DNA from: Methanolobus vulcani
GTDB lineage: Archaea; Halobacteriota; Methanosarcinia; Methanosarcinales; Methanosarcinaceae
Assembly (NCBI RefSeq): GCF_900100715.1
Contig: NZ_FNCA01000001.1
Location: 62,001-126,000 of the forward strand
Length of the DNA: 64,000 bases
Direction: 5' to 3'
Positions 30,575 through 63,205 of the stretch are shown here, in pieces (the first letter of the stretch is position 1; the number at the start of each line of letters is the position of its first letter). The notes beneath the pieces are model-generated. The model was not told the origin of the DNA. It worked only from the letters and a program-made list of their open reading frames with translations, and searched no databases. Position numbers and translations under genes: made by a program.

Positions 30575-30634
30575 ACAATAAGAACAATTATATTTCAAGT
30601 ATTATTATAATAATCTCAGAGATTTGTGATATCC

Positions 30635-31720: not shown

Positions 31721-32652
31721 GAGTCGGTGTCATCGGTGCCGGTGCCATGGGTAAGAACCACATACGTATCTACAGTGAGATGTCTGGTGTGGAACTTGCT
31801 GGTATTTCGGATATCGACAAGGATCTTGTGGAAAGTCTTGCACAGCAGTATAATACTAATGCTTTTACAGATTACAGGGAAATGCTGGCATCGGGAATTG
31901 ATGCAGTAAGCATTGTTGTTCCTACCAAGATGCACCGTCAGGTTGCCATAGATGCTATTGAAGCGGGTGCACACGTACTTGTAGAAAAACCCATTGCAGA
32001 CACCGTTGAGAATGCTGATGCAATCATTGATGCAGCTAAGAAAAAGGGACGTCTTGTAATGGTTGGACATATTGAGAGGTTCAACCCTGCTGTCATAAAG
32101 CTCAAAGAGATAATCGAATCAGGTCTGCTCGGGAAGATAGTTTCTATTTCTACCAGAAGAGTTGGACCCTATAATCCAAGGATAAGAGATGTAGGTGTTA
32201 TTCTGGACATCGGTGTACATGACATAGATGTAATATCATATCTTTATGGCAGTGATATTAATCAGGTATATGCAGTAGCCGGGGCAGATATCCACTCCTT
32301 TGAGGACCATGCCACCATACACATGAGACTTGATCATTCTTTCTCCGGGCTGGTTGAGGTAAACTGGCTCACACCGCATAAAGTGAGAAAGCTCACAGCC
32401 GTTGGTGTTGGCGGTGTTGCCTATCTTGACTATATAGACCAGACAGTGGAACTTCATGACAGTGGCTGGATCAGGAAAGCAAAGATAGAACAGAAAGAAC
32501 CACTCAGGAACGAACTTGAATATTTCATTGATTGTATCAATAACGGCAAACAGCCAAATCCTTCCGGAACTGATGGAAAGCATGCACTGAAAGTAAGTCT
32601 TGCAGCCATTAGTTCATACAAAGAAGCAAAAATGATAGATATTAAGGAATGA
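31714..32652 (+). CDS. WbpB-like Gfo/Idh/MocA oxidoreductase
   Basis: 312 aa. N-terminal NAD-binding VGVIGAGAMGKNHIRIY, then VLVEKPIADTVENAD (EKP motif) and GHIERFNPAVIKLK, DIGVHDIDVISYLYG. In the GlcNAc3NAcA pathway this enzyme oxidises C3 of UDP-N-acetylglucosaminuronic acid before the aminotransferase acts. It overlaps both neighbours, so the four genes are translationally linked. Confidence 0.9.
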   Translation: MLRVGVIGAGAMGKNHIRIYSEMSGVELAGISDIDKDLVESLAQQYNTNAFTDYREMLASGIDAVSIVVPTKMHRQVAIDAIEAGAHVLVEKPIADTVENADAIIDAAKKKGRLVMVGHIERFNPAVIKLKEIIESGLLGKIVSISTRRVGPYNPRIRDVGVILDIGVHDIDVISYLYGSDINQVYAVAGADIHSFEDHATIHMRLDHSFSGLVEVNWLTPHKVRKLTAVGVGGVAYLDYIDQTVELHDSGWIRKAKIEQKEPLRNELEYFIDCINNGKQPNPSGTDGKHALKVSLAAISSYKEAKMIDIKE

Positions 32653-32657
32653 TGATC

Positions 32658-34091
32658 ATGAGCCAGAAACTCGAGAATATTTTGAAAGAAAAAGGACCTA
32701 TAAAGAAGATAGGAGTTATAGGAATGGGTTATGTAGGCATCCCTGCAGCGGCCCTTTTTGCTGATTCAGATAAGTTTGACCATGTACTTGGATTCCAGAG
32801 GGATTCTCCTTCATCAGGTTACAAGATAGAAATGCTCAATCATGGTGAAAGTCCACTTAAAGGTGAGGAACCCGGACTGGAAGAGCTTCTTAAAAAGGTA
32901 ACTGACGCAGGTAAGTTTGAGTGCACACCCGACTTTTCCAGAATATCAGAACTTGATGCAGTTACACTGGCAATTCAGACACCTTTTGCAGACCCAAAGG
33001 CACTGGAACCTGACTTTGGGGCGCTTAAAGAAGGAATACGCAATGTAGGCAGATACCTTAAACCAGGAGTCCTTGTCGTTCTTGAATCTACCATCACCCC
33101 TGGTACAACCGATGGAATGGCAAAGGATATACTCGAGGAAGAATCAGGACTAAAAGCAGGAGAGGACTTTGCACTTGCACATGCCCCTGAAAGAGTGATG
33201 GTTGGAAGACTACTCCGTAATATCCAGGAACATGACAGGATCGTGGGTGGTATTGATAAGGCAAGCACCGACAGGGCAGTTGAACTCTATTCACCGGTAC
33301 TCACAAAGGGAAAGGTCATACCAATGAGCGCAACTGCCGCTGAAGTCACAAAGACTGCGGAGAACACATTCAGGGACCTGCAGATCGCAGCGGCGAACCA
33401 GCTTGCACTTTACTGTGAGGCCATGGGGATCAATGTTTATGACGTAAGGGCCGGTATCGACAGCCTGAAAGGAGAAGGCATAACAAGAGCCATACTATGG
33501 CCAGGTGCCGGTGTTGGTGGACACTGCCTTACCAAGGACACCTACCACCTTGAACGTGGTGTAAAACTGGGAACCGAAGCTCTTGATTACCCACAGGATG
33601 CAGAGTCTATCTATGTACTTGCACGCAGGGTCAACGATTTCATGCCTGTGCACATGTACAACCTGACTGTTGCCGCTCTTAAAAGAATAAATATGGACAT
33701 AAAGGGTGCAAAGATTGCCATGCTTGGATGGGCTTTCATCAATGACTCAGACGATGCACGTAACCCACCGTCAGAACCTTACAGGGACATGGTCCTTGAA
33801 GCCGGAGCAGAACTTAAGGTTCATGACCCTCATGTTCTCAGCTACCCTGATGTAGAGCTGCTTAAGGACTCAAGTGACGTTATAAAAGGAGCAGATGCAG
33901 TTGTTATCTTTACAGGCCATAAAGAGTATTTTGGTCTGAAACCCGAGGACATCAAGAAACTCACAGGCAAAGAAAACACTGTGATCATAGACGGCAGAAA
34001 TGTTATCGATCCTGACACTTTCATAAATGCAGGGTTTGTGTACAAGGGAATCGGCCGTGGTGACAAGAACAGTCATCCGATCGGGCAGTAA
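32658..34091 (+). CDS. WbpA/WecC-like UDP-N-acetylhexosamine 6-dehydrogenase
   Basis: About 477 aa of the UDP-glucose/UDP-GlcNAc dehydrogenase family. IGVIGMGYVGIPAAALFA binds NAD, VLESTITPGTTDGMAKD and APERVMVG follow, then EVTKTAENTFRDLQIAAANQ, and the catalytic cysteine is in GAGVGGHCLTKDTYHL. It oxidises UDP-GlcNAc (or UDP-ManNAc) at C6 to the uronate, the first step of the pathway. ATG 32658 has AAGGA nine bases upstream; ATG 32649 overlapping the previous stop is possible. Confidence 0.92.
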   Translation: MSQKLENILKEKGPIKKIGVIGMGYVGIPAAALFADSDKFDHVLGFQRDSPSSGYKIEMLNHGESPLKGEEPGLEELLKKVTDAGKFECTPDFSRISELDAVTLAIQTPFADPKALEPDFGALKEGIRNVGRYLKPGVLVVLESTITPGTTDGMAKDILEEESGLKAGEDFALAHAPERVMVGRLLRNIQEHDRIVGGIDKASTDRAVELYSPVLTKGKVIPMSATAAEVTKTAENTFRDLQIAAANQLALYCEAMGINVYDVRAGIDSLKGEGITRAILWPGAGVGGHCLTKDTYHLERGVKLGTEALDYPQDAESIYVLARRVNDFMPVHMYNLTVAALKRINMDIKGAKIAMLGWAFINDSDDARNPPSEPYRDMVLEAGAELKVHDPHVLSYPDVELLKDSSDVIKGADAVVIFTGHKEYFGLKPEDIKKLTGKENTVIIDGRNVIDPDTFINAGFVYKGIGRGDKNSHPIGQ

Positions 34092-48143: not shown

Positions 48144-48165
48144 AGAGAAAGTTTTTACTTTCTCT
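48144..48165 (-). terminator. Hairpin overlapping the end of the PEF-CTERM gene
   Basis: AGAGAAAG and CTTTCTCT form an 8-bp stem around the stop codon. Pyrimidine-rich DNA follows on the minus strand (TCTTTTCTTATTTG). Confidence 0.55.
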
Positions 48166-50206
48166 TAAAGATTAATGACAATCCTACAATTGCTATTAGG
48201 GGTATAGTAATTGTTGGGAATTCTGGAATCTCCTGAGTAGTGACATTGCCATCTTCTTCGTTTCCGCCCAACCAAATGCTTTCGGGACTACCTGGTAGCT
48301 GATTGACACGTATAACGACACCATATCCATCTTCATTAGCTGGTAGTACACCATCCCATTCGCAGCTGTCATCAAGAGTTATTGTAATCTTTTTAACGGC
48401 ATTCTGATTCCCCGTAACTCTATTTACGGCTGTAAGCATTGTGCCAAATCCTGCATTTCCAAATCCAGTATCCTCGTCTACTTCCCAGTAAACATCCGGG
48501 TTGTCAGATTCCACGCCAATAATGCAGTCACCATCAAGATTAAGCAATATAGTCTTGATGCTCCCAGTTTCCACGGGTTCCAGAATGTCAACAATAATTG
48601 AATCAGAGTAAGTATTCACAGTGATAGTTATGTCGTCACTATAAGCCACGTTTGCATCTTCTTCTGTTAAGTAACAGGTTGTTATAGGTTCGTTGTTTGG
48701 AGTATAGACGGCCAGTGGTAAATAGTCTATTGAATTTACACATGCACTTCCTTCGACAGATATAGGTATGTATATTTCATCACAAAAACCATCGCCATCT
48801 GTGTCTGGATGTGTTTGACTGAAACCCGTTCCATCTGGTTTTGCCCAATAGTTTCCGCCTAAATAAGGCCCATTGACAATGTTTGTACCTGTGCTTTTTG
48901 TAGTGTTTAAACAATTAGTTTCATCTAAATCATAATCTGACATCAACAAGTTAAGATTATTTTCAAAATAGTTATTATATATTTTATTTTGTGAGGGCTC
49001 AACTAAATCGATTCCTGACAATATGTTATTTTTAATGGTGTTTCCAACAATTTGGTTATTATCTGTAATCGCCAACAGAATACCAGATTCTGTGTTTGAG
49101 TTGCATGTGTTATTAATTAAGTTATTGTGGTCCCCCCACATCACTACAATACCATATCCCGTATTTGAATTGGCTTCATTACTAGTTAAATCGTTGTAGT
49201 TTCCATCAGATTTAATTCCAAAATCAGTGTTTTCATAAACACTATTTGATGCAAACAGATTTGAATTACCTTCACATGCAATGCCTTCTCTGTTGTCGTA
49301 TACGGTGTTTCCTATTAACGTATTAGATGATCCACTAATGGAGATTCCGTACGAATTTGAATAGACAGTATTTGTGGCTAAAAAGTAATTATTACCTAGT
49401 AAAAAAACAGTCTGCAAATTCGAATAAAAAACATTATTAGTTATATTATTTCCATTGTCAGCAAAACTAGCATAGTTTAAAATTCTGATACCAAAATTAT
49501 TACTATAAATGTAATTGTTAATAAAATCACAATCGTCGATATATATGCCGGAAATAGCATCATTAGTTTCATATATAGTATTGTTTTCTACACGGTTCCC
49601 TATAGAATCTTCTATGAGAACTCCCTCATTACTGCTACTAATAACGTTGCCCGTTAGTACGTTGTTAGAAGTACGTACTATATATACCCCCCGTTCATCA
49701 TTATTAGAAATGATATTCTCATTTACTTTATTATAAAGTGAATATTGTATGAAAATTCCATTTACGTTGTCTGTAATTACATTATTACTAAACGTATGGT
49801 TACTGCCTGCAACATCTCCCTCCCCCACAGATATACCAAACGAACCATCACTAATGGTAAAACCACTAATTTCTACGTTATTTCCAACCCGTAAACTGCT
49901 ATCTGGTTCATTGTAAAAAGCATTTAGATCAAAAACCGGTTTATTACGGTTGGCAGCCTGTACAATTGTGTCTTCCGGGTTGCCTGAAAACGAGGTTATG
50001 TTCAGATCCTTGACGATTACTACATTTTCAATATAAGTCCCTGGGTAAACTTCAACTATGTCACCATCTTCAGCCGCATCCACTGCTTCCTGTATCGTTA
50101 AAAAATCTTTTCCACTGCTGTCATCTACAGTATATATAACTGCCGAAGCAGTTCCTACAAAAAACAAAGCTAAAGCTACTGCTACTATTGCAATTCTTAA
50201 TTTCAT
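48155..50206 (-). CDS. PEF-CTERM surface protein with NosD-like beta-helix
   Basis: 683 aa from ATG 50206, which has GGTGG five bases upstream. Signal peptide RIAIVAVALALFFVGTASA. Residues ~25-480 are NosD/CASH-type parallel beta-helix repeats (NNVEISGFTISDGSFGISV and many N-T/V-I-x-N repeats). A soluble domain (~510-650) follows. The C terminus is PEFPTITIPLIAIVGLSL then FKRK, a PEF-CTERM sorting signal: motif, hydrophobic helix, basic tail. Expected substrate of the archaeosortase at 57664, leading to cleavage and lipid anchoring. It sits inside the glycan cluster. Confidence 0.92.
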   Translation of the reverse strand: MKLRIAIVAVALALFFVGTASAVIYTVDDSSGKDFLTIQEAVDAAEDGDIVEVYPGTYIENVVIVKDLNITSFSGNPEDTIVQAANRNKPVFDLNAFYNEPDSSLRVGNNVEISGFTISDGSFGISVGEGDVAGSNHTFSNNVITDNVNGIFIQYSLYNKVNENIISNNDERGVYIVRTSNNVLTGNVISSSNEGVLIEDSIGNRVENNTIYETNDAISGIYIDDCDFINNYIYSNNFGIRILNYASFADNGNNITNNVFYSNLQTVFLLGNNYFLATNTVYSNSYGISISGSSNTLIGNTVYDNREGIACEGNSNLFASNSVYENTDFGIKSDGNYNDLTSNEANSNTGYGIVVMWGDHNNLINNTCNSNTESGILLAITDNNQIVGNTIKNNILSGIDLVEPSQNKIYNNYFENNLNLLMSDYDLDETNCLNTTKSTGTNIVNGPYLGGNYWAKPDGTGFSQTHPDTDGDGFCDEIYIPISVEGSACVNSIDYLPLAVYTPNNEPITTCYLTEEDANVAYSDDITITVNTYSDSIIVDILEPVETGSIKTILLNLDGDCIIGVESDNPDVYWEVDEDTGFGNAGFGTMLTAVNRVTGNQNAVKKITITLDDSCEWDGVLPANEDGYGVVIRVNQLPGSPESIWLGGNEEDGNVTTQEIPEFPTITIPLIAIVGLSLIFKRK

Positions 50207-50447
50207 TAAACCACCGAGTTCAATAACCTTATACAAATATTGAGTGATGACTATAAGAAGTTACTTATTTAAAATACAAATAAATGATTTAAACAGTGTT
50301 AATTTGGGACATTACAACAAATGACCAACATCTTACAGTACATATCATAATTTATAAAAATCGAATCCTATCTGGATTTTTATGATGTCAACATAAGCAA
50401 CCAAAATAACAATGTAAAAATAATGGATGCATCATTTAATATAAAAA

Positions 50448-51875
50448 TTACTTTCCTTTTTTGACTAACGATTTTAGCATCAAATAATCATCTCCAGAGA
50501 TACTTTTGAATAATACTAACAGACATAGATATAATACTGCACAGATAATTATAGTTAAGAACATATTTATTTTAGGGAGCATTGAAAGAACTAATCCCAT
50601 GATCACTGAAGACAAAATAATCATGAAACTGCTCTTATTCAATGGAATGTATGAAAATGATTTATAGATAAAAATGGATTCGGAGATAAATAAAAGGATC
50701 ACTGAAATTAATGTTGCTATTGCAGCCCCATTATAAGAATAAAGCGGAATTAAAATTATATTTAGTATTATATTGATTACACAGCATATACCTACTGAAA
50801 TAGTATTCATTTTTTGCCTATTTGAAGATGTGAGCAAAGAACTTTGAATTGAATTGATAGAATTAAATATTACTGTTAACGACAGTATTTGAAGTGTGAT
50901 AACTGAATAATTATAATCTGCACTATATAATAAATGTATAATTCTATCTGATAAAAGGAATAAACCCATAGTTATAGGTAGCATTAACTGGAGAATATAT
51001 TTGCATCCAAGTGAATAAGTATAGTTTAATTTTGATACATTTTCATGGTATAGTTTAGACATAACTGGCATCATTGTAGAGGCTAACGCACCTGGCAAAA
51101 AAAGCAATGGATCGGTAAGTTTGTATGCAGCTGAATATAATCCAACTGCAGTATTCCCTACCATTTTTGAAAGCATTAAAATATCGATACGATAATAAAT
51201 TATAAAAAGAGCATAACCAGCTATGAAAGGTAGACATTCCTTGAATAAATACTTCCACATACCAAAATCAATACTAAAATGCAAATTAATAAATTTTTTA
51301 GAGTAAAACATTGCAAGAATCATACGAATAGATTCAGCAGCAACATACCCATAAAAAAAATAAATAATAGGATAATGAAGATATATAAAAATGAAAACAA
51401 AAATTGCATAAATAAACTTAGATGAAATTAAACCTATTGAAGAATATTGCATTTTTAAATTAGCTTGAAATAATGATTCAAAAAGATAACTAATCCCTTG
51501 GAATAATAAAATTATCGTCATTATGGAAATGTACGAAATAATAGAATAAGAATAGTGTAATAAATTAATTAGTAATATAGCCATAAGTATTGCAAAAACA
51601 GAAGTAATAACTCTTATAGAAAGAATGTTACCCATCATAATATTTGTCTTTTCTGGAAATCGCGCCAAATCCCGTATTAAAATAGAATCCATTCCAAAAT
51701 TAGCAACAAAAGTAAAAAACATCAAGTAAGTAATTACAAAATTATAATCTCCAAATTGTTCTACTCCTAAATATCTAGCCAAATATACTGAAATAAATAA
51801 AGCTAGTATTTTCACCACTACATTTCCTATTAATATAAATGTTGCATTTGTTGCTACTTTTTTGTATGTAGTCAT
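50448..51875 (-). CDS. Wzx-type polysaccharide flippase
   Basis: 475 aa, about 12-14 membrane helices. YKKVATNATFILIGNVVVKI, ARYLGVEQFGDYNFVITYLM and MDSILIRDLARFPEKTN match the polysaccharide flippase (MATE/MVF) family. It overlaps the upstream GT2 gene by 4 nt. A second flippase after the one at 8425, so the window encodes two separate glycan export routes. The 241 bp to the PEF-CTERM gene holds the latter's promoter. Confidence 0.93.
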   Translation of the reverse strand: MTTYKKVATNATFILIGNVVVKILALFISVYLARYLGVEQFGDYNFVITYLMFFTFVANFGMDSILIRDLARFPEKTNIMMGNILSIRVITSVFAILMAILLINLLHYSYSIISYISIMTIILLFQGISYLFESLFQANLKMQYSSIGLISSKFIYAIFVFIFIYLHYPIIYFFYGYVAAESIRMILAMFYSKKFINLHFSIDFGMWKYLFKECLPFIAGYALFIIYYRIDILMLSKMVGNTAVGLYSAAYKLTDPLLFLPGALASTMMPVMSKLYHENVSKLNYTYSLGCKYILQLMLPITMGLFLLSDRIIHLLYSADYNYSVITLQILSLTVIFNSINSIQSSLLTSSNRQKMNTISVGICCVINIILNIILIPLYSYNGAAIATLISVILLFISESIFIYKSFSYIPLNKSSFMIILSSVIMGLVLSMLPKINMFLTIIICAVLYLCLLVLFKSISGDDYLMLKSLVKKGK

Positions 51876-52861
51876 GACAAGTACCTTTGATTAATTAATT
51901 CTATATTTAAATTTTTTATATCAGAGAAATGTTTTAAGCATACATAATAAGCATAAAAACTATACAAAATTCTATTAAAGAAATAGTTGAATTTACTATT
52001 TGCAAATATAATTGCAAAAATTATATCTTGAAATAAAAGCCCAATTTCGCTCCAGAAAAACAACAAGAAATTAATGGGCCTCCCTAAATTTTTCGATACA
52101 AAATATAAATTATATGTTTTTTCCATGATTAAAGAATCTTTCATTGGACTATTTTTATTTAAAGACGGATGGGTATATACAATGGCTTTTGGTGCAATGT
52201 AAACAGATTTTGGATTTGATAAATAAATCCTATAAGAGAAATCTGCATCTTCGCCATAACAATACTTTACTAACTTTTCATCATATTTAAAAGTCTTAAA
52301 TACTTCCTTTTTAATGCAAGTTAAACCCCCAGAAGCCCATTCACAGTTAGCATCTTCAGTACAATTAAAAGGAGATGTTGTTTTTCCCGACATTAAAACC
52401 TTTTTTTCGCACGGAGTGTACCTAAATGTTAAAAAAAAATTCGCATAAGAATTCCATATGTTATCCCATATTTGATTAAGTAATTTAACCGAAGATTTTC
52501 TTTTTGGAATCATACCTTGAACAAGTAAAGCATCTGGATGACTGTTAAAACAACTAACTATTTCCTCAATATAGTTCTCTGCTGGAATATCATCATCATC
52601 CAAAAAAAACAAGTAATCACCGTGAGCTTTTGAAGCACCTAAATTTCGAGCGATAGAAACACTATTAACACTAGTGAACAAATAAGTACATGAAGCAAAA
52701 TGTGAAGTATAAGAAGATGTAACCTCTTTAGTTAGTTTGTTAGAAGCATTATCTACTACTATTACTTCATCTGGAAGATGAGATTGACTAGAAAGAACGC
52801 TCAACAACTCTCCCAATTTCTCAGGTCTATTATAAGTAGGAATAATAACAGATATTTTCAT
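51872..52861 (-). CDS. GT2-family glycosyltransferase
   Basis: 329 aa. ISVIIPTYNRPEKLGELLSV, DEVIVVDNASN, YLFFLDDDDIPAENYIEEIV (DDD cluster) and the acceptor-side ED motif in YCYGEDADFSYRIYL are all present. A short hydrophobic C-terminal segment may associate with the membrane. Typical of rhamnosyl- or galactosyl-type surface-glycan enzymes, but the sugar cannot be told. Confidence 0.92.
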   Translation of the reverse strand: MKISVIIPTYNRPEKLGELLSVLSSQSHLPDEVIVVDNASNKLTKEVTSSYTSHFASCTYLFTSVNSVSIARNLGASKAHGDYLFFLDDDDIPAENYIEEIVSCFNSHPDALLVQGMIPKRKSSVKLLNQIWDNIWNSYANFFLTFRYTPCEKKVLMSGKTTSPFNCTEDANCEWASGGLTCIKKEVFKTFKYDEKLVKYCYGEDADFSYRIYLSNPKSVYIAPKAIVYTHPSLNKNSPMKDSLIMEKTYNLYFVSKNLGRPINFLLFFWSEIGLLFQDIIFAIIFANSKFNYFFNRILYSFYAYYVCLKHFSDIKNLNIELINQRYLS

Positions 52862-52917: not shown

Positions 52918-53973
52918 TCATTTATTTAAAGAATTATCACAGGATTGTTCAATAGTAGTTAATATAAACTCAACGACATCTATTTTATCATTCAACATTT
53001 TTTCTCTTTTAATAACCCATTCATCCCTAGAATTAGGCTTTAAAATAGCAATTGCCTTATTTAAAGCTTCAGATTTGTCAACAAGAGTATAACATAAATC
53101 ATAGCTATGTTCAAGTTCCTCCAGATAACCCCTTGTAGTATTTGAAACATAAATAGAAGGAACACCTAATACAGCAGCTTCTGCAGCCATTGAAGCTCCT
53201 TCACCTATATATAGCGAAGAATAATACAAAAGGCTATGAAAATTCTCAGGAGGTACATTTACTTTATACTTTCCAAGTTCTGGACCGAGTTCAATCTCCG
53301 TAGTAATAAAGACTTTGCCATATTTAAGGAGAGAATTTACAAAAGATAAAATATCAGCTTCATTTTTAAAATTAAAGCCTTCTGCATTAACATCATGATG
53401 CGCATTTAAAGCTGAAAGACGGAGTATCGTATATTTTTCACCTTTTTTCAAACCGGCAATCTGCAACACACCAGGATCTGGAGTAAAGTATTTTGGGTGT
53501 AAATAAGATAACTCATAATATCCATTGAATTTCTTTTGTTTTTTACCCCTATCAATTCTGTGACATGTAGGTACATAATCTACTTTCGAAAACAGCAAAG
53601 TTGTGAATACAAACTGATTAATTGTTGCTTTTTCAGTATCAGTATCAGTAAAAGAAATATGATCTTTTCTCAATAAAAAACTAGCTTGGGCTGCATAAGG
53701 TGAACCAAAGCTCACAAAAAGATCTGCATTGAAATTCTTTGCTATTTTATATACCCGATAATCATTTTTAAACATGCCACATAATTTATTGAACAAACCT
53801 GTGTAATGAGGTTTCACTTCATAATCTAAACAATAAGAATTTAAAATCTCCAAGATATTTTCTTTGTTTGCAGCAACAATCTTAATTGAATGACCATCAG
53901 TAGATAATCTATTTATTACATTCAAAAAAACATTAATATCCTTTGGATGATTTATATCAATGAGAATACGCAT
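52918..53973 (-). CDS. DUF354 protein (GT-B/epimerase-like)
   Basis: 351 aa. MRILIDINHPKDINVFLNVI and FVSFGSPYAAQASFLL then SFTDTDTEK match DUF354, a family with a UDP-GlcNAc 2-epimerase/GT-B fold found in archaeal glycan clusters. The second domain has LYIGEGASMAAEAAVLGVPS, like a nucleotide-sugar binding loop. GGAGGT lies before the ATG, the strongest ribosome site in the operon. Its reaction is unknown. Confidence 0.85.
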   Translation of the reverse strand: MRILIDINHPKDINVFLNVINRLSTDGHSIKIVAANKENILEILNSYCLDYEVKPHYTGLFNKLCGMFKNDYRVYKIAKNFNADLFVSFGSPYAAQASFLLRKDHISFTDTDTEKATINQFVFTTLLFSKVDYVPTCHRIDRGKKQKKFNGYYELSYLHPKYFTPDPGVLQIAGLKKGEKYTILRLSALNAHHDVNAEGFNFKNEADILSFVNSLLKYGKVFITTEIELGPELGKYKVNVPPENFHSLLYYSSLYIGEGASMAAEAAVLGVPSIYVSNTTRGYLEELEHSYDLCYTLVDKSEALNKAIAILKPNSRDEWVIKREKMLNDKIDVVEFILTTIEQSCDNSLNK

Positions 53974-53976
53974 TGA

Positions 53977-55077
53977 TTACCTCCATATAAGTGTATTTAG
54001 TAAATCTTTTGATGAGAAAACTTTTTTACCCCGATAAGAAGAAAGAGCTGAATTGAATATTTTCATCTTGTTTTCATTTCTTAATAATTGGTTAATAATA
54101 GAAGGAATATCTTTGTAGATATTTATGAACTTTACACCTATATCATATGAAGTATTTGTTTCAAAATCATAGCCTAATGACACATTATATAGATGAAATG
54201 GAAAGTCAACCCCACATGCAATTGGATGCTTTAAATACTGCCAAAAACGAGGGTTTATTTCAATTAACTTAAAGCAATTATCCCTCAAATCCAATTTGAA
54301 TTCAATTTCCGCTACTCCATACCACTTCAGGCTATCAAATATTTTTTTTGCATAATCCAGTAAAACCTGTTCAAATATACTCACGCCACATGTAGTAATT
54401 CCACCCGTATGAGGATATTCACGAATTTTTTTTGCCATAAAAAATGATACTAACTCATGGTCTTGATTGTACAGCACATTTATCATATACATCTGCTCAC
54501 TTGAACCAGGAATATATTCTTGAACCATAGGAAGATGTCCAGCATTAATAAGTTCGGAATAATAACCTATAAGTTCATCTTTTGATTTAACAATATGAAT
54601 ACATCTTGCTGCACCTCCACCCATTCGAGGTTTTATTATTAGAGGATATGTCGCAATTTCGGAATATTTAATCAATTCATCATGATTTTTAAAAACAAAT
54701 GTTTCAGGTACTGGGATATTTAATAATTTCGCTAAATCAAATGTTTGAAATTTATCGTGTGCTTTTATCAAATAATCGTAATCTGAAATTGGAACATCAC
54801 ACACTTCATTCAAAAGAGATTTGTTTTTACTAAGTGGAATTACAACGTCATCACTCATTGGAAATACTGTTTCGATATGATTTTTTAAACATATATCATA
54901 TACTGAGTCAATAAAATATTCAGTTGACGGAGGCAAATAAGTCACATATTTTTGTTGGGAAAAATTAAAGATGGGTTCTGAAATATCTGCTGCAATAGTA
55001 GAAATACCTTCTTTATTAAGAGATTTTGCTGCCTCTTTTGATATTTTCCAAGAAGAATTTGTTAATAATACAGACAT
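53977..55077 (-). CDS. ATP-grasp enzyme of the glycan cluster
   Basis: 366 aa. N-terminal pre-ATP-grasp domain (VLLTNSSWKISKEAAKSLNK), then YPLIIKPRMGGGAARCIHIV (phosphate-binding loop), MVQEYIPGSSEQMYMINVLY, and FKLIEINPRFWQYLKHPIAC with the metal-binding E and N. ATP-grasp ligases join a carboxylate to an amine through acyl phosphate. In such clusters they may add an amino acid to a sugar. Three bp separate it from the DUF354 gene. Confidence 0.9.
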   Translation of the reverse strand: MSVLLTNSSWKISKEAAKSLNKEGISTIAADISEPIFNFSQQKYVTYLPPSTEYFIDSVYDICLKNHIETVFPMSDDVVIPLSKNKSLLNEVCDVPISDYDYLIKAHDKFQTFDLAKLLNIPVPETFVFKNHDELIKYSEIATYPLIIKPRMGGGAARCIHIVKSKDELIGYYSELINAGHLPMVQEYIPGSSEQMYMINVLYNQDHELVSFFMAKKIREYPHTGGITTCGVSIFEQVLLDYAKKIFDSLKWYGVAEIEFKLDLRDNCFKLIEINPRFWQYLKHPIACGVDFPFHLYNVSLGYDFETNTSYDIGVKFINIYKDIPSIINQLLRNENKMKIFNSALSSYRGKKVFSSKDLLNTLIWR

Positions 55078-55094
55078 ATAAACCTACTCCACTT

Positions 55095-55556
55095 TTACTT
55101 TAAAGTACCTATTTTTTTTGCAGGAACACCTGCAACTATGGTATATGATTCTACATTTTTAGTAACAACTGCCCCAGCACCCACAACAGCTCCTTCACCA
55201 ATTGTAACATTAGGCAATATTGTAACAGAAGCTCCAATCCAAGAGCCTCTCATAATATGTATTGGGCCACTTGTTGTCGAAGTAATTTTGCCATATTTAG
55301 CAATATCACTTACAGGATGTGTACGAAGAACTAAGATTGAATACGGACCAATGTGAACATCATCTTCGATTGTAAGCAAAGATGAATCTGAATGATGAGT
55401 CCCCCATAAAAGGCAAAAGGGACTTATAATGGAGTTATTACCTATAGCGTAACCACATTTCCTCCACCAATAAGTAGGCCACTTATACGATACAGGATAT
55501 CGTGCTAAAAAACTATATAATTTCAACTTCAGTTTATGTAATATTAATAGGCCCAT
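55095..55556 (-). CDS. Hexapeptide-repeat acetyltransferase
   Basis: 153 aa from ATG 55556, preceded by GGTGG; a TTG start at 55586 would overlap the FemAB gene. YAIGNNSIISPFCLLWG, LLTIEDDVHIGPYSILVLRT, GSWIGASVTILPNVTIGEGA and AGVPAKKIG mark a short left-handed beta-helix O-acetyltransferase. The histidine in LRTHPVSD may be catalytic. Likely acetylates the glycan made by the operon. Confidence 0.87.
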   Translation of the reverse strand: MGLLILHKLKLKLYSFLARYPVSYKWPTYWWRKCGYAIGNNSIISPFCLLWGTHHSDSSLLTIEDDVHIGPYSILVLRTHPVSDIAKYGKITSTTSGPIHIMRGSWIGASVTILPNVTIGEGAVVGAGAVVTKNVESYTIVAGVPAKKIGTLK

Positions 55557-55570
55557 AATCCACCATTGTT

Positions 55571-56596
55571 TTAACGTGAAATCCAAGTCAAAAAAGGTTT
55601 TACTTTTTGATAGGGCTTCAGTGCGTTGATTGCTAGTATTTTTTTTGCCGCAGAATGCACCTTCTCATACCTGCCATAATTCACCATTTCCCCACCAAAT
55701 CTTCTCTTGAACTCCCTGACACCATATGGTTTATCCGGGTGACCGGCACCGCCAAAATCAAAGACCTTATATTTACCGGCATTCGTCTTAAGGATATGCC
55801 ATACAAGAGCTTCATCCACGTAATCAACTCCCTGACAGGATCCGGCATACCAATCATAAACCATATCCTTATAATTGAGAGTAATTCGTGTTCCTATAGC
55901 TTCCTCGTCTTTATATGCAATAAAGAAATCTGCAAGCTCTGTACCTGACAAGTCATCATATACAGCTTCAAAGAGAGAAATATCTGCTATGGGAATCTTA
56001 AATCGCTTATATGTTTCAAGCACAAGATCATAACATAGATTCAGTTCTTTCTTATTTTCTACGCTACGGACTACAATTCCATCTCTTTCAGCCCTGTTTA
56101 TCCCTTTTCGACGGGACTTCTGGATATCCGACCAAATTTCTTTTTCATCCCGATCAAGATCGATCAAAAAATCAAGGTGTTCTTTGTATTCATAACCCAT
56201 CTCAGTCAAAGTATCGTGATAATCGCTGGTATCCCACATATTGCGTATCTGAGTATAAACAATCTTACTTTTTATTCGATTATTATAGTGAGACATTAGT
56301 TCCAAAACTGCTTTCCTGCCCTGATCAGAATCCACAAATAGCGGAGCACCCTGAATGACTGAGCGTGACGAAAAAGGCGAAAGCACACCTTTCATTTCAC
56401 AAATCAAAGAACCCTGCACCAGAGCAAGTATATTTCCTGAATCTTCATCCCTTGCTATAAGGCGTACAGGTTCATACTTGTTGGTCTTCTCATATATCTT
56501 TGACATATGAGATGTCTGGAAAATATTGCCATGCGGATGATCCTGAACAAAATTATCCCACTCTGTATCATCAAAATTATCAGTAATTAATGTCAT
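55571..56596 (-). CDS. FemAB-like tandem-GNAT protein
   Basis: 341 aa from ATG 56596 with GGTGA upstream. HPHGNIFQTSHMSKIYEKTN, then SDIQKSRRKGINRAERDGIV with its basic helix and, in the second half, DYVDEALVWHILKTNAGKYK then FDFGGAGHPDKPYGVREFKR match FemAB/MeTr. Bacterial FemAB adds amino acids to peptidoglycan; methanogens of this group have no such wall, so the acceptor is probably the surface glycan. FemAB genes are also hallmarks of bacterial PEP-CTERM/exosortase loci. Confidence 0.88.
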   Translation of the reverse strand: MTLITDNFDDTEWDNFVQDHPHGNIFQTSHMSKIYEKTNKYEPVRLIARDEDSGNILALVQGSLICEMKGVLSPFSSRSVIQGAPLFVDSDQGRKAVLELMSHYNNRIKSKIVYTQIRNMWDTSDYHDTLTEMGYEYKEHLDFLIDLDRDEKEIWSDIQKSRRKGINRAERDGIVVRSVENKKELNLCYDLVLETYKRFKIPIADISLFEAVYDDLSGTELADFFIAYKDEEAIGTRITLNYKDMVYDWYAGSCQGVDYVDEALVWHILKTNAGKYKVFDFGGAGHPDKPYGVREFKRRFGGEMVNYGRYEKVHSAAKKILAINALKPYQKVKPFLTWISR

Positions 56597-56610
56597 GAAC
56601 TTCACCTAAG

Positions 56611-57399
56611 CTACCTGGTCATCTTCCTATACTGTATAATTCCAGCCTTGCCAACATTCTTGAGATTCTGCATGACAAGCTCTTTGGTCCAACCCAGCAT
56701 TCCATCACACCACCTGTTAGGATGTGCAAGGATACACATCTGCTCAACCTCTTCACGCTTCACAAGGTTAATAACATCATCTGTAGATTTTATGGTTTTC
56801 CCATACCTGACACTCAGTTCATTATCAGGACTTTCAAGAACATCCTTTACACGTATGTTGCGATCCGCCCAGGTTCTTCCGGTATCTGTGAGATAAAGCA
56901 CTTTGGAATAATCAATGGAAAAATAAGGTTCACCTACGATCCCAAGATCAGTGTAATTATGATCCTTCCAGAGATCCCGATTGGACCACGAAGCAAAAGG
57001 ATTTCCATGCATGCATGCAGTAGTAACCTTCGCATATTTGCGAAGATCTTCCAGTTCAGTTCTGAATATTTCCAAGGCCTCTTCTTTATCACCCTTTGCC
57101 TTATCCATTACTTCATAATGGAAACCCACCTCATGTCCAAGATCTGCGACCTCTTCAATGGCCGAAGGGATGAAAACATCTTTTACATGCCTGAAATAAT
57201 AAGTAGATCTTACACCATATTCCGCTTCCAGTCTTGCCATTTCAAGATTTCTGTCAACAGCACGATCCACATCGTGGCGTAAGATGATACAGCGTTCCTC
57301 TGGAGACAAAAGATAATCGAGAACTGGCATGGGTTTGTATTCTGTAGACTCTATTGCTTCGATAAGTTCTTCATACTTAGCTAATGTGAAATCTCTCAA
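56611..57399 (-). CDS. Polysaccharide deacetylase-like protein
   Basis: 262 aa from a TTG with GAGG seven bases upstream. The first metal motif is CIILRHDVDRAVDRNLEMAR. GHEVGFHYEVMDKAKGD carries the H-x3-E/H zone, and ACMHGNPFASWSNRDLW and CILAHPNRWCDG supply later histidines. This fits the NodB-fold deacetylases. It is the first gene of the minus-strand operon, divergent from the archaeosortase gene across 264 bp. Confidence 0.88.
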   Translation of the reverse strand: MRDFTLAKYEELIEAIESTEYKPMPVLDYLLSPEERCIILRHDVDRAVDRNLEMARLEAEYGVRSTYYFRHVKDVFIPSAIEEVADLGHEVGFHYEVMDKAKGDKEEALEIFRTELEDLRKYAKVTTACMHGNPFASWSNRDLWKDHNYTDLGIVGEPYFSIDYSKVLYLTDTGRTWADRNIRVKDVLESPDNELSVRYGKTIKSTDDVINLVKREEVEQMCILAHPNRWCDGMLGWTKELVMQNLKNVGKAGIIQYRKMTR

Positions 57400-57663
57400 G
57401 ACAGAACCTCAGTGTTAGATAACAATCAATATTTATGGAGTGGTAAAGTAATCAGATTCAACTGACGGCACATTAAGTATTTAATGAAACAGGAAATCCC
57501 ATAGTATATTGCAATATCACCCTGTTTTTAGCCAAATTACTAAACAAAGCAAAATATAAATTACTAACTATATAAAGTTAGCACCTGCTCAAAAAATGAT
57601 GATGATGAGGACTTCAGTCAAATATATATATCATTTTAATGATTCTGTAAATGGGTACAAAAA

Positions 57664-58488
57664 ATGCAAGATGAAAACAAAAACTTAATTATTATCCTTT
57701 TAGTACTTGCACTTTTCACGGGGGCAACTATAGAACTCAGTGAAGGTTCTACTATAATGGGTGTAATACTTTTCATAATAGCTGCAATCCTTATCTCCAG
57801 AATGAAATTAAAAGGAGAAGAAGGGTTACAGAGTTCAAAAAATTTCATGCTCATAGGTGGGTTCATAGTAGCTGCTGATCTCATATACAACTATGTGAAC
57901 AGCAGCGGGCTGGGAACACTCGATTCAATGGTCTTTTTCCTTGGAGTATCATTGATCGCAATGGGTACAGGGAAGAGAGACCTGAAACAACTTGGAGAAT
58001 TTGGTTTCTATATATCCTCTGTGTTCACCGGACTATACCTGATATTCTATTCATTCTTTGGATTTTTTAACATCGATTTTCTGCATCTCTTTGACCATTA
58101 TTTTGTCCTTATGCCAACTGTGGCATTCATAAAGATTTTTGGAATACCCATTGAAATAATAGCCACAGAGACCGTCATCCTGTATGGTGCTAAACCAATG
58201 ACCATTGTGATAGGAGGACCCTGTTCAGGTCTTTATTCAATGTTCCTGTTAATAGGTATTGTTGCTGGATATTCAAGGATAGAGAAAATGGACATGAAAA
58301 AGACATTTGCCTTATTGGGTCTTGCAGTTCTTATCGCATACATTGCAAACCTTATCAGAGTCCTGATCTTATATATCACTGCATACTTCTACGGAATGGA
58401 CGTAATGATGATAGTCCATACACACATAGGCTGGATGATATTCGCAGTCACTGCAGGCGGCATCATGTACATTATCAATAAAAAATAA
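57664..58488 (+). CDS. artC: Archaeosortase (ArtC-like, PEF-CTERM type)
   Basis: 274 aa with about eight membrane helices. The catalytic Cys187 is in IGGPCSGLYSMFLLIGI, Arg232 in YIANLIRVLILYI and the third residue His254 in IVHTHIGWMIF, the Cys/Arg/His set of exosortases and archaeosortases. These transpeptidase-like enzymes cleave C-terminal sorting signals. PEF-CTERM proteins at 48155 and 62702 are likely substrates, and the family paired with PEF-CTERM is ArtC; the subtype here is inferred from those substrates. TATATAAAG about 95 bp upstream is a possible promoter. Confidence 0.93.
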   Translation: MQDENKNLIIILLVLALFTGATIELSEGSTIMGVILFIIAAILISRMKLKGEEGLQSSKNFMLIGGFIVAADLIYNYVNSSGLGTLDSMVFFLGVSLIAMGTGKRDLKQLGEFGFYISSVFTGLYLIFYSFFGFFNIDFLHLFDHYFVLMPTVAFIKIFGIPIEIIATETVILYGAKPMTIVIGGPCSGLYSMFLLIGIVAGYSRIEKMDMKKTFALLGLAVLIAYIANLIRVLILYITAYFYGMDVMMIVHTHIGWMIFAVTAGGIMYIINKK

Positions 58489-58504: not shown

Positions 58505-58532
58505 AATAGAATGCATTTTAGCGTTCTATTAA
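58505..58532. terminator. Bidirectional terminator between convergent genes
   Basis: TAATAGAA and TTCTATTA flank a 12-base loop between the archaeosortase gene and the small membrane protein gene, overlapping the end of the latter. Confidence 0.45.
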
Positions 58533-58760
58533 TCTCTTTTTGAATATCCTGACAGATATAACCATCAGAACTATGACTGTGCCCATATAAACAAAGCTAA
58601 GTCCAAATACAAGTAGGAATTTGAAATCTTTGAGTATAAAAGTTATAGCCACAATAAGACCAAAAAGAATGATCGAATAAGAAATAAAACTGAACATCAT
58701 TGCTTTTTGCCAGTCTTTAAGACTTGTATAAAAATAGTTAATCTCCGTAAACATACTCAA
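58518..58760 (-). CDS. Small two- or three-helix membrane protein
   Basis: 80 aa. YFYTSLKDWQKAMMFSFISY leads into two hydrophobic segments (IILFGLIVAITFIL, FLLVFGLSFVYMGTVIVLMV) and a basic tail (FKKRLIER). I recognise no family. Its ATG overlaps the stop of the M48-like gene by 4 nt, so the two products are probably made together and may interact in the membrane. Confidence 0.7.
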   Translation of the reverse strand: MSMFTEINYFYTSLKDWQKAMMFSFISYSIILFGLIVAITFILKDFKFLLVFGLSFVYMGTVIVLMVISVRIFKKRLIER

Positions 58761-59662
58761 ACCTCAACTCCATCCAGCCTTTTTCTAATTATTTTCTCCT
58801 GATATACATCATTATCGATCTTGTCAATGGCCTTCAAACGTGCCGAAAGATCAGGTTTCATATTAAAAAGAGAGAGATGAATGTCGAAAAAAGAGTTGAC
58901 TTTAACAGGATTCATGACATACAAATGAACATGGCCAGGATTAAAATACTCCATGGAATTAAGAAGTATATCATTATGCAACCTTTTTAACGCGGATGAT
59001 AATATATCCTTATTTTTCATTACCTTTAAAACTTCAATATCAGCCTTTGATGTTGAATCAGAAGCACCGGCATAAACAATAAGGGAACATGGAAGCATAA
59101 CAATACCCATAACAACAAATCGTATGAATTTTGGAGCAGGATCTTCCTCCTGACCAAAACCACCCAGCATAGCCATCCACAGAGCAATAGTAGAAAAAGA
59201 TGCAATGATACCTGCTATAAATGCCACAAAAGTATTGAGAGCCACATTGCCTTCTTTAATGCGAGCCATCTCCCGGGCAAAGATCATTTCCAGTTCATCA
59301 TCTTCCAGAATATCAAGCAATCTGCGAGAGAAAACGATATGAGAACTTTTTTTAGAACCTACTGTAAATATAACAGGAACTGCTGATTCAAATAGATGGA
59401 TTTCCGGCTTATTCACCGAAAAAATGCTGCAAAGATTATCTAACATTCCATATACTTCTGCAAACTCACCAGATGGCACATCATGGCATCCATACCACTT
59501 CAAAATAAAACGTGAAGATGACAGATAGATTACTCTGCTCAATATGAGAACAATAGCAAAACTCAAAATTCCCGGTACTAAGCCTCCAATATAGAATGAA
59601 ACTGATACTACAGGAAGAGTAATCAAAATAAACAGAAGATATATCCAGATCTTATTCCTAAT
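58757..59662 (-). CDS. M48/HtpX-like membrane protein lacking the protease motif, apparent ATT start
   Basis: About 301 aa. Two N-terminal helices, VNKPEIHLFESAVPVIFTVG, and two more helices follow the HtpX plan. Where HtpX has HExxH after DELEAVLA, this protein has DELEMIFAREMARIKEGN: both histidines are arginine and only the glutamate remains. The distal zinc-ligand glutamate region (ASDSTSKADIEVLKVM) is also changed. The protein should therefore not cleave peptides. The start shown is ATT 59662 with GAGGG five to six bases upstream; the first TTG (59626) would cut the first helix. Coupled to the 80-aa membrane protein. Confidence 0.75.
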   Translation of the reverse strand: MRNKIWIYLLFILITLPVVSVSFYIGGLVPGILSFAIVLILSRVIYLSSSRFILKWYGCHDVPSGEFAEVYGMLDNLCSIFSVNKPEIHLFESAVPVIFTVGSKKSSHIVFSRRLLDILEDDELEMIFAREMARIKEGNVALNTFVAFIAGIIASFSTIALWMAMLGGFGQEEDPAPKFIRFVVMGIVMLPCSLIVYAGASDSTSKADIEVLKVMKNKDILSSALKRLHNDILLNSMEYFNPGHVHLYVMNPVKVNSFFDIHLSLFNMKPDLSARLKAIDKIDNDVYQEKIIRKRLDGVEV

Positions 59663-59827: not shown

Positions 59828-62548
59828 ATGTTTGGCAAAAACAAATGCAAGTACACCCAGGATCTTAAAATATTATTTTTGGTAGCATTGCTATCAATTG
59901 TCTTTATCCTGGTTCCGCCTTTCAGTGAAACCCCTTTGAGGATACCTTTCGCATTACTATTGATATTTTTTATACCTGGGTATACTTTTATTTCCGCCAT
60001 GTTCCCCGGAAATCAGGTGATCTCAGGAATTGAAAGATTCACACTAAGCGTTGGTTTTAGCATTATTATCATGGTTTTTGATGGATTTCTTATTAGCCTT
60101 ACTGTATGGAAATTCAGGCCAAACTCAATTACCATTTCACTTGTATTGCTCACATTCATATTTGGGATCATAGCTTATCTGGCAAGGAAACGCCTACCTC
60201 TGGATGATCAATTTAGCTTTTCATACAAAGATTTCATTCATTCACTTACAGCGCCGGAAACATGCAACATTGATGATGAAGAGGAGAATATCTGCTATGA
60301 TGAGAACATAGATGACAAGCGTTTTGCTGCAAGGAACAGAAAAAAAATATCCTCAATGCGCAAACCAGTGAAAGCTATGAAAAAACCTGCTTTGAAAACC
60401 AGTGAAAGATTGCCTCCAGAGATTACAAAAACTCTCATAATAGCAATGGTGCTTTCGATCATCGTTGCCGGTTCAATGTTTGCCTATGCAAAAGCTACCA
60501 GAGAAAAAGAGACATTCACAACATTATACATACTGGGCCCTGATGGCAAAGCTGACAACTACCCGGAAAATTTCTCAATAAATGATCCGATACAGATTAT
60601 TGCTGGTATTGAAAATTATGAACATGCAAAAGAGAACTACACACTTGAGATAATTCTGGATGGGTCTACATTAAATACAATGGAAATAACTCTCGATCAT
60701 GGAGAAAAGTGGGAAAAAGAACTTACTATAACTCCTACCCAATCAAAACAAGGAAAACAGAAACTCGAACTTGCTTTATATAAGGGTGGTTCAGAAGGTA
60801 ATACATATAGAACAGTAAATCTCTGGGTCAATCAGGTACTAAGCAATGGACCCATCATAACAAAAGATCATGAAGCAATAGATTTCGTAAAAATAATAAA
60901 TCCATCTATGGAATCTGATGACGGATGGGAATTCACCACCACTAACGATACCATAGCCGCAGGATACTATGAAAATGGTACGGGAATATACGGATCAAGG
61001 GCATTTGTCATCAATGCCACTTATAAGGGTATGCTTAATGAATACAATTCACATACTGTAGAACAGATGATATACAGTAACAAATCTGCAAATGTTATAT
61101 TATCATGCTACATTAAAGATTCATATACAAAAGGAACCCCGGATAAAGATGAAACCCAATCAAAAAGAATAATTTTGAACAGAAATGTAATTTGGTCTGA
61201 TGGAATGAATGGAGATGAAGGTTGGCAACATTTAGAAATACCAATCACATTGCAAGAAGGTAATAATACCCTTGACTTTAGAATGCTACAGGGAAGACTT
61301 CAGGAATTAAATCCTGTTGAAATGATAATAGATGAGGTTTCTATTATACCAGAATCTGCATTATCAAAATACATAAGAGCCGACAATACAGTAGAATTTG
61401 AACTGCCAGAATCTAAGGTATTGCCGCTTCCAAAAACAAGCAATACAAAATTTACTGTTCAGTGGGAAGGCACTGATGTTGGATCTGGAATCTATTATTA
61501 TACTATACAATATTCTACGAATGGAACTGAATGGAAAGACTGGATATCAAAAACAGCTATGACATCGGGAGAGTTTGAAGGGCAAGAAGGAGTTACATAT
61601 TATTTCAGATCAAAAGCTGTTGACAATGCACTTAATGAGGAAATGGAAAAATCAACACCAGATACCAGTACAACCATAGATACGGCCACACCGGAGATTG
61701 AACTGGATATTACACCAAATCCGACAAGTGATGTAACGTATCTAACAGTAAACTCGAACAAAGCACTTTTGTCTGTTGACTGCCTGATCACCCCTCACAA
61801 TTTTGGTACTATTGAAAATATCAAACTTTCTACAACTGATAATATAACCTGGGCAAGCAAATACAAAGTGGAAGTACAAGATACATATGATATTGAGGTA
61901 ATGGCCAGAGATTATGCAAACAACACAGCCTACACATTTGGCACGTTATACACGGATGAGTCTTTAGAAAAACTGACTATAGATTTCGATCCAGAAGAAA
62001 CATCTGATGAAGTAACAATAACTGTAACCTCATCAACTGCATTAAAGACAGAACCTACCTTAGTAGTGAAAGACAGATATGGTCACAAACTAGAGGTTAA
62101 TTACCAGAGTTCAAAAGATAATGAGTATGTATACGTTGCCACAACCAATGATGACGATCTGGATTATACAATCTATGATGGAACAGCACGTGTTACGGTT
62201 ACTGCTAAAACAGTTAATTCAATGACGCTCTATGAAGAAGATACTTTCTTAATAGACAGAGTAGACCCGACAATCGTAAGTTTCAGTCCTGATGACGGTG
62301 AAACTGTTAAAACAAATAGCCCATCTATCAGAGCTTCATATTCAGATGATCGTGCAGGTATTGATAAAACAAAAGTAAAACTCATAGTAAATGGAATAGA
62401 TGTAACCAGCAATGCGGAAATAGATTACAGTTCCATATATTATCTGGCACAAGGACTGGAAAATGGAAAAGTTGACGTGCAACTGACAGTAACAGATCAG
62501 GCGGGCAATACTAAAGAGAAAGACTGGTCATTCTTTGTAACAGCATGA
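59828..62548 (+). CDS. DUF1616 membrane protein with large extracytoplasmic beta-rich domain
   Basis: 906 aa. Four helices at ~14-120 with RIPFALLLIFFIPGYTFISA then GIERFTLSVGFSII are the DUF1616 signature. An acidic then basic linker leads to a fifth helix (TLIIAMVLSIIVAGSMFAYA, ~residue 205). The outside part holds a CARDB-like stretch (FSINDPIQIIAGIENYE), a carbohydrate-binding-like jelly roll (~355-500) and Ig/FN3-like repeats (YYYTIQYSTNGTEWKDWISK, then VDPTIVSFSPDDGETV). It may hold or recognise surface glycan. It lies between the archaeosortase unit and a PEF-CTERM gene. Confidence 0.85.
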   Translation: MFGKNKCKYTQDLKILFLVALLSIVFILVPPFSETPLRIPFALLLIFFIPGYTFISAMFPGNQVISGIERFTLSVGFSIIIMVFDGFLISLTVWKFRPNSITISLVLLTFIFGIIAYLARKRLPLDDQFSFSYKDFIHSLTAPETCNIDDEEENICYDENIDDKRFAARNRKKISSMRKPVKAMKKPALKTSERLPPEITKTLIIAMVLSIIVAGSMFAYAKATREKETFTTLYILGPDGKADNYPENFSINDPIQIIAGIENYEHAKENYTLEIILDGSTLNTMEITLDHGEKWEKELTITPTQSKQGKQKLELALYKGGSEGNTYRTVNLWVNQVLSNGPIITKDHEAIDFVKIINPSMESDDGWEFTTTNDTIAAGYYENGTGIYGSRAFVINATYKGMLNEYNSHTVEQMIYSNKSANVILSCYIKDSYTKGTPDKDETQSKRIILNRNVIWSDGMNGDEGWQHLEIPITLQEGNNTLDFRMLQGRLQELNPVEMIIDEVSIIPESALSKYIRADNTVEFELPESKVLPLPKTSNTKFTVQWEGTDVGSGIYYYTIQYSTNGTEWKDWISKTAMTSGEFEGQEGVTYYFRSKAVDNALNEEMEKSTPDTSTTIDTATPEIELDITPNPTSDVTYLTVNSNKALLSVDCLITPHNFGTIENIKLSTTDNITWASKYKVEVQDTYDIEVMARDYANNTAYTFGTLYTDESLEKLTIDFDPEETSDEVTITVTSSTALKTEPTLVVKDRYGHKLEVNYQSSKDNEYVYVATTNDDDLDYTIYDGTARVTVTAKTVNSMTLYEEDTFLIDRVDPTIVSFSPDDGETVKTNSPSIRASYSDDRAGIDKTKVKLIVNGIDVTSNAEIDYSSIYYLAQGLENGKVDVQLTVTDQAGNTKEKDWSFFVTA

Positions 62549-62701
62549 TGATGGCGAATAAAGGATATCGATAACATATCATCATAATGAGTATAATGAC
62601 TTATATGAATGTTTACAAACGTTTATATAGAAAAAAAGCAAAGGAGAGAATACCGTAAAAATCTTTTAGATATACTTTGAGATATAATGAGGTGGTACGA
62701 T

Positions 62702-63205
62702 ATGAAAAAAATATTAATAGCAATAGCAGTCATTGCATTGTTTACAGGAACAGCAGCAGCATATGATGCTAACATATGGAATGCAGCAGGAACAGCAGCA
62801 GCCGGTAACCCAATAGTTATTCACCCTGGCGAAACACTTACATTCAGTTACAATGGAGCTAATTTTGCATCCGAGAATCAGGTTTTGCCTTATTACTCTG
62901 ACGTAGAAGCTGTTTCAGGAGGAGCTGCCGATACAGATATGACAGTAACTATCAGCAAAACAAACTTCGAGCCAGGAATAGCAGATCCATATACCGATGT
63001 AGCTGTAGTTCAGATCACTCTTGATGCAAATGCACCAGCAACAGGACAGTGGAGAGTTACCATAGGAGCAGGCGAAGATGCAATAACAAAGGATGTAGGA
63101 TCAGCAGCAAGGAACTTCCTGATTCCTGAATTCCCAACAATTGCACTCCCAGTAGCTGCAATCCTTGGTCTTGCATTCTTCATGCAGCGCCGCAAGGAAG
63201 AGTAA
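62702..63205 (+). CDS. Small PEF-CTERM surface protein
   Basis: 167 aa from ATG 62702, with GAGGTGGT five bases upstream. Signal peptide ILIAIAVIALFTGTAAA, a beta-rich domain with PIVIHPGETLTFSYNG and WRVTIGAGEDA, then IPEFPTIALPVAAILGLAFF and a basic tail QRRKEE: a complete PEF-CTERM signal. Second probable archaeosortase substrate, 4 kb from the enzyme. TTTATATAG ~75 bp upstream is a likely TATA box. The strong ribosome site suggests high expression. Confidence 0.92.
   Translation: MKKILIAIAVIALFTGTAAAYDANIWNAAGTAAAGNPIVIHPGETLTFSYNGANFASENQVLPYYSDVEAVSGGAADTDMTVTISKTNFEPGIADPYTDVAVVQITLDANAPATGQWRVTIGAGEDAITKDVGSAARNFLIPEFPTIALPVAAILGLAFFMQRRKEE

Follow-up and report, generated by a model that had tools for sequence, protein, structure and literature searches.

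Archaeosortase C beside a deacetylase and a FemAB-type transferase in Methanolobus vulcani: a conserved neighbourhood and a candidate acceptor

To which group does archaeosortase C (ArtC) join the surface proteins that it sorts? The acceptor group of exosortases and of ArtC is not given in the literature that was searched. The window analysed here, i.e. the whole stretch of 64,000 nucleotides from Methanolobus vulcani, contains artC beside genes for a polysaccharide deacetylase-like protein and a FemAB-type aminoacyl transferase, and this arrangement suggests an aminoacylated sugar amine as a specific candidate. As this lineage has neither an outer membrane nor peptidoglycan in the way and offers ArtA as an internal comparison, the acceptor question becomes testable.

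The artC locus and its PEF-CTERM proteins

The sortase encoded by artC (274 aa; 57664..58488, plus strand) is a genuine archaeosortase C, as it reaches 337.5 bits with TIGR03762 (cut-off 100), and fails the exosortase (EpsH) model TIGR02602 (47.7 bits against a cut-off of 105.55). The initial annotation had listed Cys187, Arg232 and His254 for this enzyme. In an alignment of 19 ArtC proteins Cys187 and Arg232 of the catalytic Cys-Arg-His set are indeed invariant, but the invariant histidine is His252, position 254 being a tyrosine in some of them.

An intergenic region of 264 bp (57400..57663) separates artC from the divergent gene of the CE4-like deacetylase (262 aa; 56611..57399, minus strand), an order that is kept in relatives. 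The minus-strand run continues with the FemAB-type aminoacyl transferase (344 aa; 55571..56605), a hexapeptide-repeat sugar acetyltransferase (55095..55586; PF00132), an ATP-grasp ligase (53977..55077; PF02786, PF02655 and PRK12767-type models), a glycosyltransferase-like DUF354 protein (52918..53973; PF04007, 33.2 bits, gathering score 22), a GT2 glycosyltransferase (51872..52861; NCBIfam GT2 models) and a Wzx-type flippase (50448..51875; 110 bits to NF041871, below the cut-off of that model). The layout that had been described is thus confirmed by ORF coordinates and family models. A BshB1-like PIG-L protein encoded at 45742-46398, within the same glycan gene run, is a second possible deacetylase.

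On the other side of artC lie genes for a small membrane protein (80 aa; 58518..58760, minus strand), an M48-like membrane protein (58757..59626, minus strand; PF01435, 37.3 bits) and a DUF1616 protein (59828..62548, plus strand; PF07760, 202 bits), the first and the last of which are conserved beside artC according to the neighbourhood table. The M48-like protein stays next to artC while its zinc motif decays: a motif alignment gives HEIGH in Methanosarcina, REIGH in Methanococcoides, REMAR (the window protein, which has lost HExxH) or CETAK in Methanolobus, and HNIVQ in another family.

PEF-CTERM proteins are encoded on both sides of artC, as had been noted. One is a small protein (62687..63205, plus strand; 38.4 bits to TIGR03024), the other a parallel beta-helix, NosD-like surface protein (48155..50236, minus strand; PF05048 and PF13229), which scored 21.6 bits to TIGR03024 in the window scan (cut-off 23) and 27.6 bits in the genome search. 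Their position is weak evidence, however, because they are only two of 14 matches above the cut-off that are spread over six contigs of the genome; most substrates of ArtC would therefore be encoded far from artC itself. PEF-CTERM proteins are also present in 24 genomes without ArtC above the cut-off, among them G130, G138, G128, G154, G168 and G140; G138 is a single contig and has one exosortase-family match only. A third archaeosortase-like frame was seen in the genome of the window (G000:C9:233599-233910, locus L002; 39.3 bits to TIGR04125).

Conservation of the neighbourhood

The survey covered 186 genomes of the order, 62 of which have ArtC above the cut-off; 60 artC loci were fetched, and their neighbouring genes were assigned after comparing them with those of the window. 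Among the 31 Methanosarcinaceae loci with at least 4.5 kb upstream of artC, a divergent deacetylase gene lies within 3 kb in 26, and both this gene and a window-type FemAB gene are found in 23. Outside this family the deacetylase adjoins artC in only 2 of 16 loci. The M48-like and DUF1616 genes on the other side of artC are more widely conserved than the deacetylase-FemAB pair. In one locus (L198, G063:C34) two divergent archaeosortase-like genes stand in tandem near a deacetylase and three FemAB genes.

Profile searches linked the pair to ArtC also at the level of whole genomes. An ArtC-type deacetylase (over 360 bits) occurs in 41 of the 62 genomes with ArtC versus 2 of the other 124, and an ArtC-type FemAB (over 450 bits) in 26 versus 1; stratified by genus, the association gave Cochran-Mantel-Haenszel (CMH) p-values of 3e-13 and 2e-10, respectively, which are somewhat circular because the profiles derive from copies next to artC and the bit limits were put at gaps in scores that were already known. 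In two trees the artC-adjacent copies cluster, with 5 and 3 label changes compared to 20.6 and 16.6 in shuffles. Within genera, co-occurrence is far above expectation. The linkage of deacetylase, FemAB and ArtC is old and conserved, and accident is very unlikely within the Methanosarcinaceae. A literature search on archaeosortase neighbourhoods, outside the scope of which fell Haft et al. 2012, found no earlier mention of this one.

Surface-protein and polysaccharide genes might nevertheless share an exchangeable island in which neighbours have no functional meaning. Polysaccharide genes are often exchanged, adjacency is rare outside the Methanosarcinaceae, and in genome G107 ArtC is encoded on one contig and the deacetylase and FemAB, together with the M48-like and DUF1616 proteins, on another (loci L071 and L199). 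Such hitchhiking is hard to reconcile with the within-genus association, with the clades of adjacent copies, which look vertical, and with the replacement described below, which preserves the slot. The DUF1616 gene argues in the same direction: when it was searched for in 14 genomes, namely 13 without ArtC above the cut-off and G107, G132 alone gave a long close match (49% identity over 806 residues) and G107 a split one, all others being short or partial; an ArtC-type deacetylase, too, is present in just these two of the 14 genomes. We therefore regard hitchhiking as unlikely.

The pair compared with PEP-CTERM loci and polysaccharide modules

The locus had been presented as an archaeal parallel of the bacterial loci in which an exosortase accompanies exopolysaccharide genes, and the FemAB and the deacetylase were compared with the corresponding subfamily models. 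The window FemAB passes PF02388 (50.0 bits, gathering score 24) and fails TIGR03019, the nearest NCBIfam model, with 56.6 bits against a cut-off of 260.35. The deacetylase on its own reached no Pfam or NCBIfam model; it has no match to TIGR03006, the PEP-CTERM deacetylase model (4 of 27 relatives have one, with E 0.0019 at best), or to PF01522 (best relative E 0.011, gathering score missed). Filing the two window proteins as members of the PEP-CTERM subfamilies is thus ruled out by the model cut-offs.

Other artC loci carry such proteins in the same place. Four Methanosarcinaceae loci in which the deacetylase has no window-type FemAB beside it were checked (L048, L056, L063 and L066). L056 combines a deacetylase of PF01522 (66.1 bits) with a FemAB that reaches 292.3 bits to TIGR03019, above the cut-off; in L048 and L063 TIGR03019 is the best model for the slot FemAB but stays under its cut-off (216.1 and 191.6 bits); in L066 the FemAB was assigned by position, as genome G113 has a TIGR03019 match of 201.7 bits there. 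Outside the family, L086 contains a FemAB with 225.4 bits, also below the cut-off. In the whole order, with E up to 1e-30, 6 of 28 TIGR03019 matches lie within 10 kb of artC compared to 0.13 expected, a test that is independent of the profiles built here but whose 10-kb limit was chosen after the places had been seen. The FemAB, and once both genes, have been replaced by other subfamilies in the same slot beside artC. Elsewhere, a divergent archaeosortase-like gene has a deacetylase above the TIGR03006 cut-off at a distance of about 2.5 kb (G057:C29:63376-67025), and fusions of about 570 aa, in which a TIGR03006-like domain follows a window-type deacetylase domain, occur away from artC at G157:C1:906948-908483 and similar places.

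The claimed parallel therefore holds for the slot, which a PEP-CTERM-type FemAB can fill, and not for the window proteins themselves. As in the PEP-CTERM/exosortase systems (EpsH, XrtA), a sortase of the same superfamily stands beside a deacetylase, a FemAB and glycan genes, and in relatives a TIGR03019-type protein occupies the FemAB slot; here, in contrast, the sortase is ArtC and the FemAB and the deacetylase of the window fall outside TIGR03019 and TIGR03006. Judged by these sequence comparisons, the locus corresponds in archaea to the bacterial PEP-CTERM locus but does not belong to it. The same pair of activities appears to be kept beside a sortase in archaea as in bacteria, partly by means of different subfamilies.

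The pair is not restricted to sortase loci. Distant relatives of the FemAB in Woesearchaeota, Aminicenantes, Bacteroidetes and Anaerolineae belong to polysaccharide-type clusters, several of them with the same type of deacetylase and a DUF354 gene, and no sortase was found within the fetched flanks. An exosortase-family gene is present elsewhere in 9 of 14 of these genomes, on another contig except in the archaeal contig L194, where it lies about 16 kb from the FemAB relative. Methanosarcinaceae that lack ArtC also carry deacetylase-DUF354 clusters, some with a FemAB, and in relatives of the window the glycan genes downstream of the pair are freely exchanged, as seen in the neighbourhood table. 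Since the window proteins are outside the PEP-CTERM subfamilies and the same pair is found in polysaccharide loci without a sortase, the locus is an analogue that arose from a general polysaccharide module recruited beside ArtC.

From this it is quite conceivable that the deacetylase and the FemAB decorate a surface polysaccharide independently of sorting, that PEF-CTERM proteins work in or bind this polysaccharide, and that ArtC uses a lipid acceptor like ArtA. The sortase-free occurrence of the module with DUF354, GT2 and flippase genes in Woesearchaeota, Bacteroidetes, Aminicenantes and ArtC-less Methanosarcinaceae, and the free swapping of the downstream genes, fit this explanation. Yet it is the pair that remains nearest to artC and follows its presence, the other glycan genes being variable, and the substitution of a PEP-CTERM-type FemAB in this slot speaks for a function linked to the sortase. 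We consider this explanation possible, although it is not the one that we favour.

A linking sugar as candidate acceptor of ArtC

The likeliest reading is that the deacetylase and the FemAB make an aminoacylated sugar amine that ArtC would join to PEF-CTERM proteins. The predicted structures are consistent with both activities. The AlphaFold2 (AF2) model of the FemAB (pLDDT 93.3) has the tandem-GNAT FemX fold, with FemX as top match (E 7e-19). Its closest solved folds are FemX, Sbb17 and Sba18, FemA and then MprF, with 12 to 19% identity to FemX/FemA and Sbb17/Sba18. FemX, Sbb17, Sba18, FemA and MprF are enzymes that transfer amino acids from tRNA; the substrates of the peptide-bond-forming enzymes FemX/FemA and Sbb17/Sba18, which depend on aminoacyl-tRNA, differ in being peptidoglycan or streptothrisamine. 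The initial suggestion that the FemAB may add an amino acid appears a good guess, since the modelled fold is that of amino-acid transferases such as FemX.

The label of polysaccharide deacetylase comes from the weak matches of relatives and from the fold, which place the protein near CE4, and not from a family-model match of its own. The best PDB matches of its AF2 model (pLDDT 86.5) are CE4 deacetylases (E 4e-4, probability 1.0), with TM scores of only about 0.4 to 0.5 and with CE4 pseudoenzymes among the matches. In two alignments the motifs HDVDR, GHExGxHYE, CMHGNP and HPNR are invariant. The metal ligands of CE4 motif 2 are arranged as H-S/T-x-x-H; here the motif reads H94-Y-E-V-M, so that the second metal-binding histidine is absent. 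This loss, the low TM scores, the pseudoenzymes and the missing Pfam or NCBIfam match would all suit a protein that is inactive or has another activity, in which case the sugar-amine model would fail and the link between FemAB and ArtC would still be real. However, HDVD, His94, His131 and His226 are invariant across distant relatives, including bacterial ones, and a PF01522 deacetylase occupies the same slot in L056, so that we hold such a loss of function to be improbable, even more so than hitchhiking.

Taken as a deacetylase, the CE4-like protein would free an amine on a lipid-linked amino sugar, to which the FemAB would add an amino acid, and the flippase would export the glycan. ArtC would cut PEF-CTERM proteins at their signal through Cys187 and transfer the carboxyl end formed in this way to the aminoacyl sugar, at its amine. 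The protein would then be anchored via a glycan, the linking sugar, and not directly via archaetidylethanolamine, which has been suggested for ArtA; that a glycan or lipid-glycan serves for attachment is what we infer.

Two precedents led to this reading. In Porphyromonas gingivalis and Tannerella forsythia, VimE, a putative deacetylase, and VimA, a transferase that matches TIGR03019, make a sugar that carries serine or glycine, to which the C termini of cargo proteins are amide-bonded; the authors drew attention to similar pairs next to exosortases but did not assign them a role (PMC7468200). The Wbp/Vim pathway resembles the artC locus in that a deacetylase and a TIGR03019-like transferase go with a C-terminal sorting enzyme, the Vim pair supplying the aminoacylated sugar, and differs in that the sorting enzyme is the PorU sortase of type IX secretion and the carrier an outer-membrane LPS. 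The second precedent is found in the same genome, where artA is followed by pssD and pssA, the archaetidylserine decarboxylase and synthase genes. It was from this synteny that others arrived at the lipid donor of ArtA (PMC7157517). As artA heads a lipid-donor operon, the genes next to an archaeosortase can indicate its acceptor; in Methanosarcinaceae, and for ArtA of Haloferax, an archaeosortase likewise has neighbours thought to make its acceptor, but those make archaetidylethanolamine and not a glycan.

The linking-sugar function is favoured by the identity of ArtC and its invariant Cys-Arg-His residues, the conserved divergent order, the within-genus co-occurrence and the clustered trees, as well as by the PEP-CTERM-type FemAB in the slot and the FemX and CE4-like folds. 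It is weakened by the pair or its paralogues in polysaccharide loci without ArtC, the scarce adjacency outside the family, the separation of ArtC from the pair in G107, the missing motif 2 histidine and the PEF-CTERM proteins in genomes without ArtC above the cut-off. On balance we find it plausible and give a probability of about 0.45 that the locus forms a conserved unit of function for one of the two main routes by which the cell sorts surface proteins, with ArtC anchoring them via an aminoacyl linking sugar. More tentatively, the deacetylase and the FemAB beside artC may make an aminoacylated amino-sugar glycolipid to which ArtC joins PEF-CTERM proteins; such an anchor would differ from the archaetidyl one that ArtA uses in this cell, and would follow the chemical logic of bacterial exosortase loci and the Vim pathway.

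The window also contains a Wbp-like run of genes (29897..34091, plus strand) for an acetyltransferase (NF040723, 526.6 bits, cut-off 450), a transaminase, a UDP-GlcNAc 3-dehydrogenase and an NDP-sugar dehydrogenase (TIGR03026, 311.5 bits, cut-off 189.8), with a TIGR03588-like match. These precursor genes are compatible with a linking sugar and possibly supply a 2,3-diamino-uronate that is not specific to ArtC. As proof of the linking sugar they were rejected, as the 3-dehydrogenase is present in 119 of the 186 genomes and G115 lacks it although ArtC, the deacetylase and the FemAB are all there; its wide distribution and this absence mean that a 2,3-diamino-uronate precursor is not obligatory, and the absence from G115 weighs against the linking-sugar reading. 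A VanZ-family protein is encoded next to this run, at 34093-34704.
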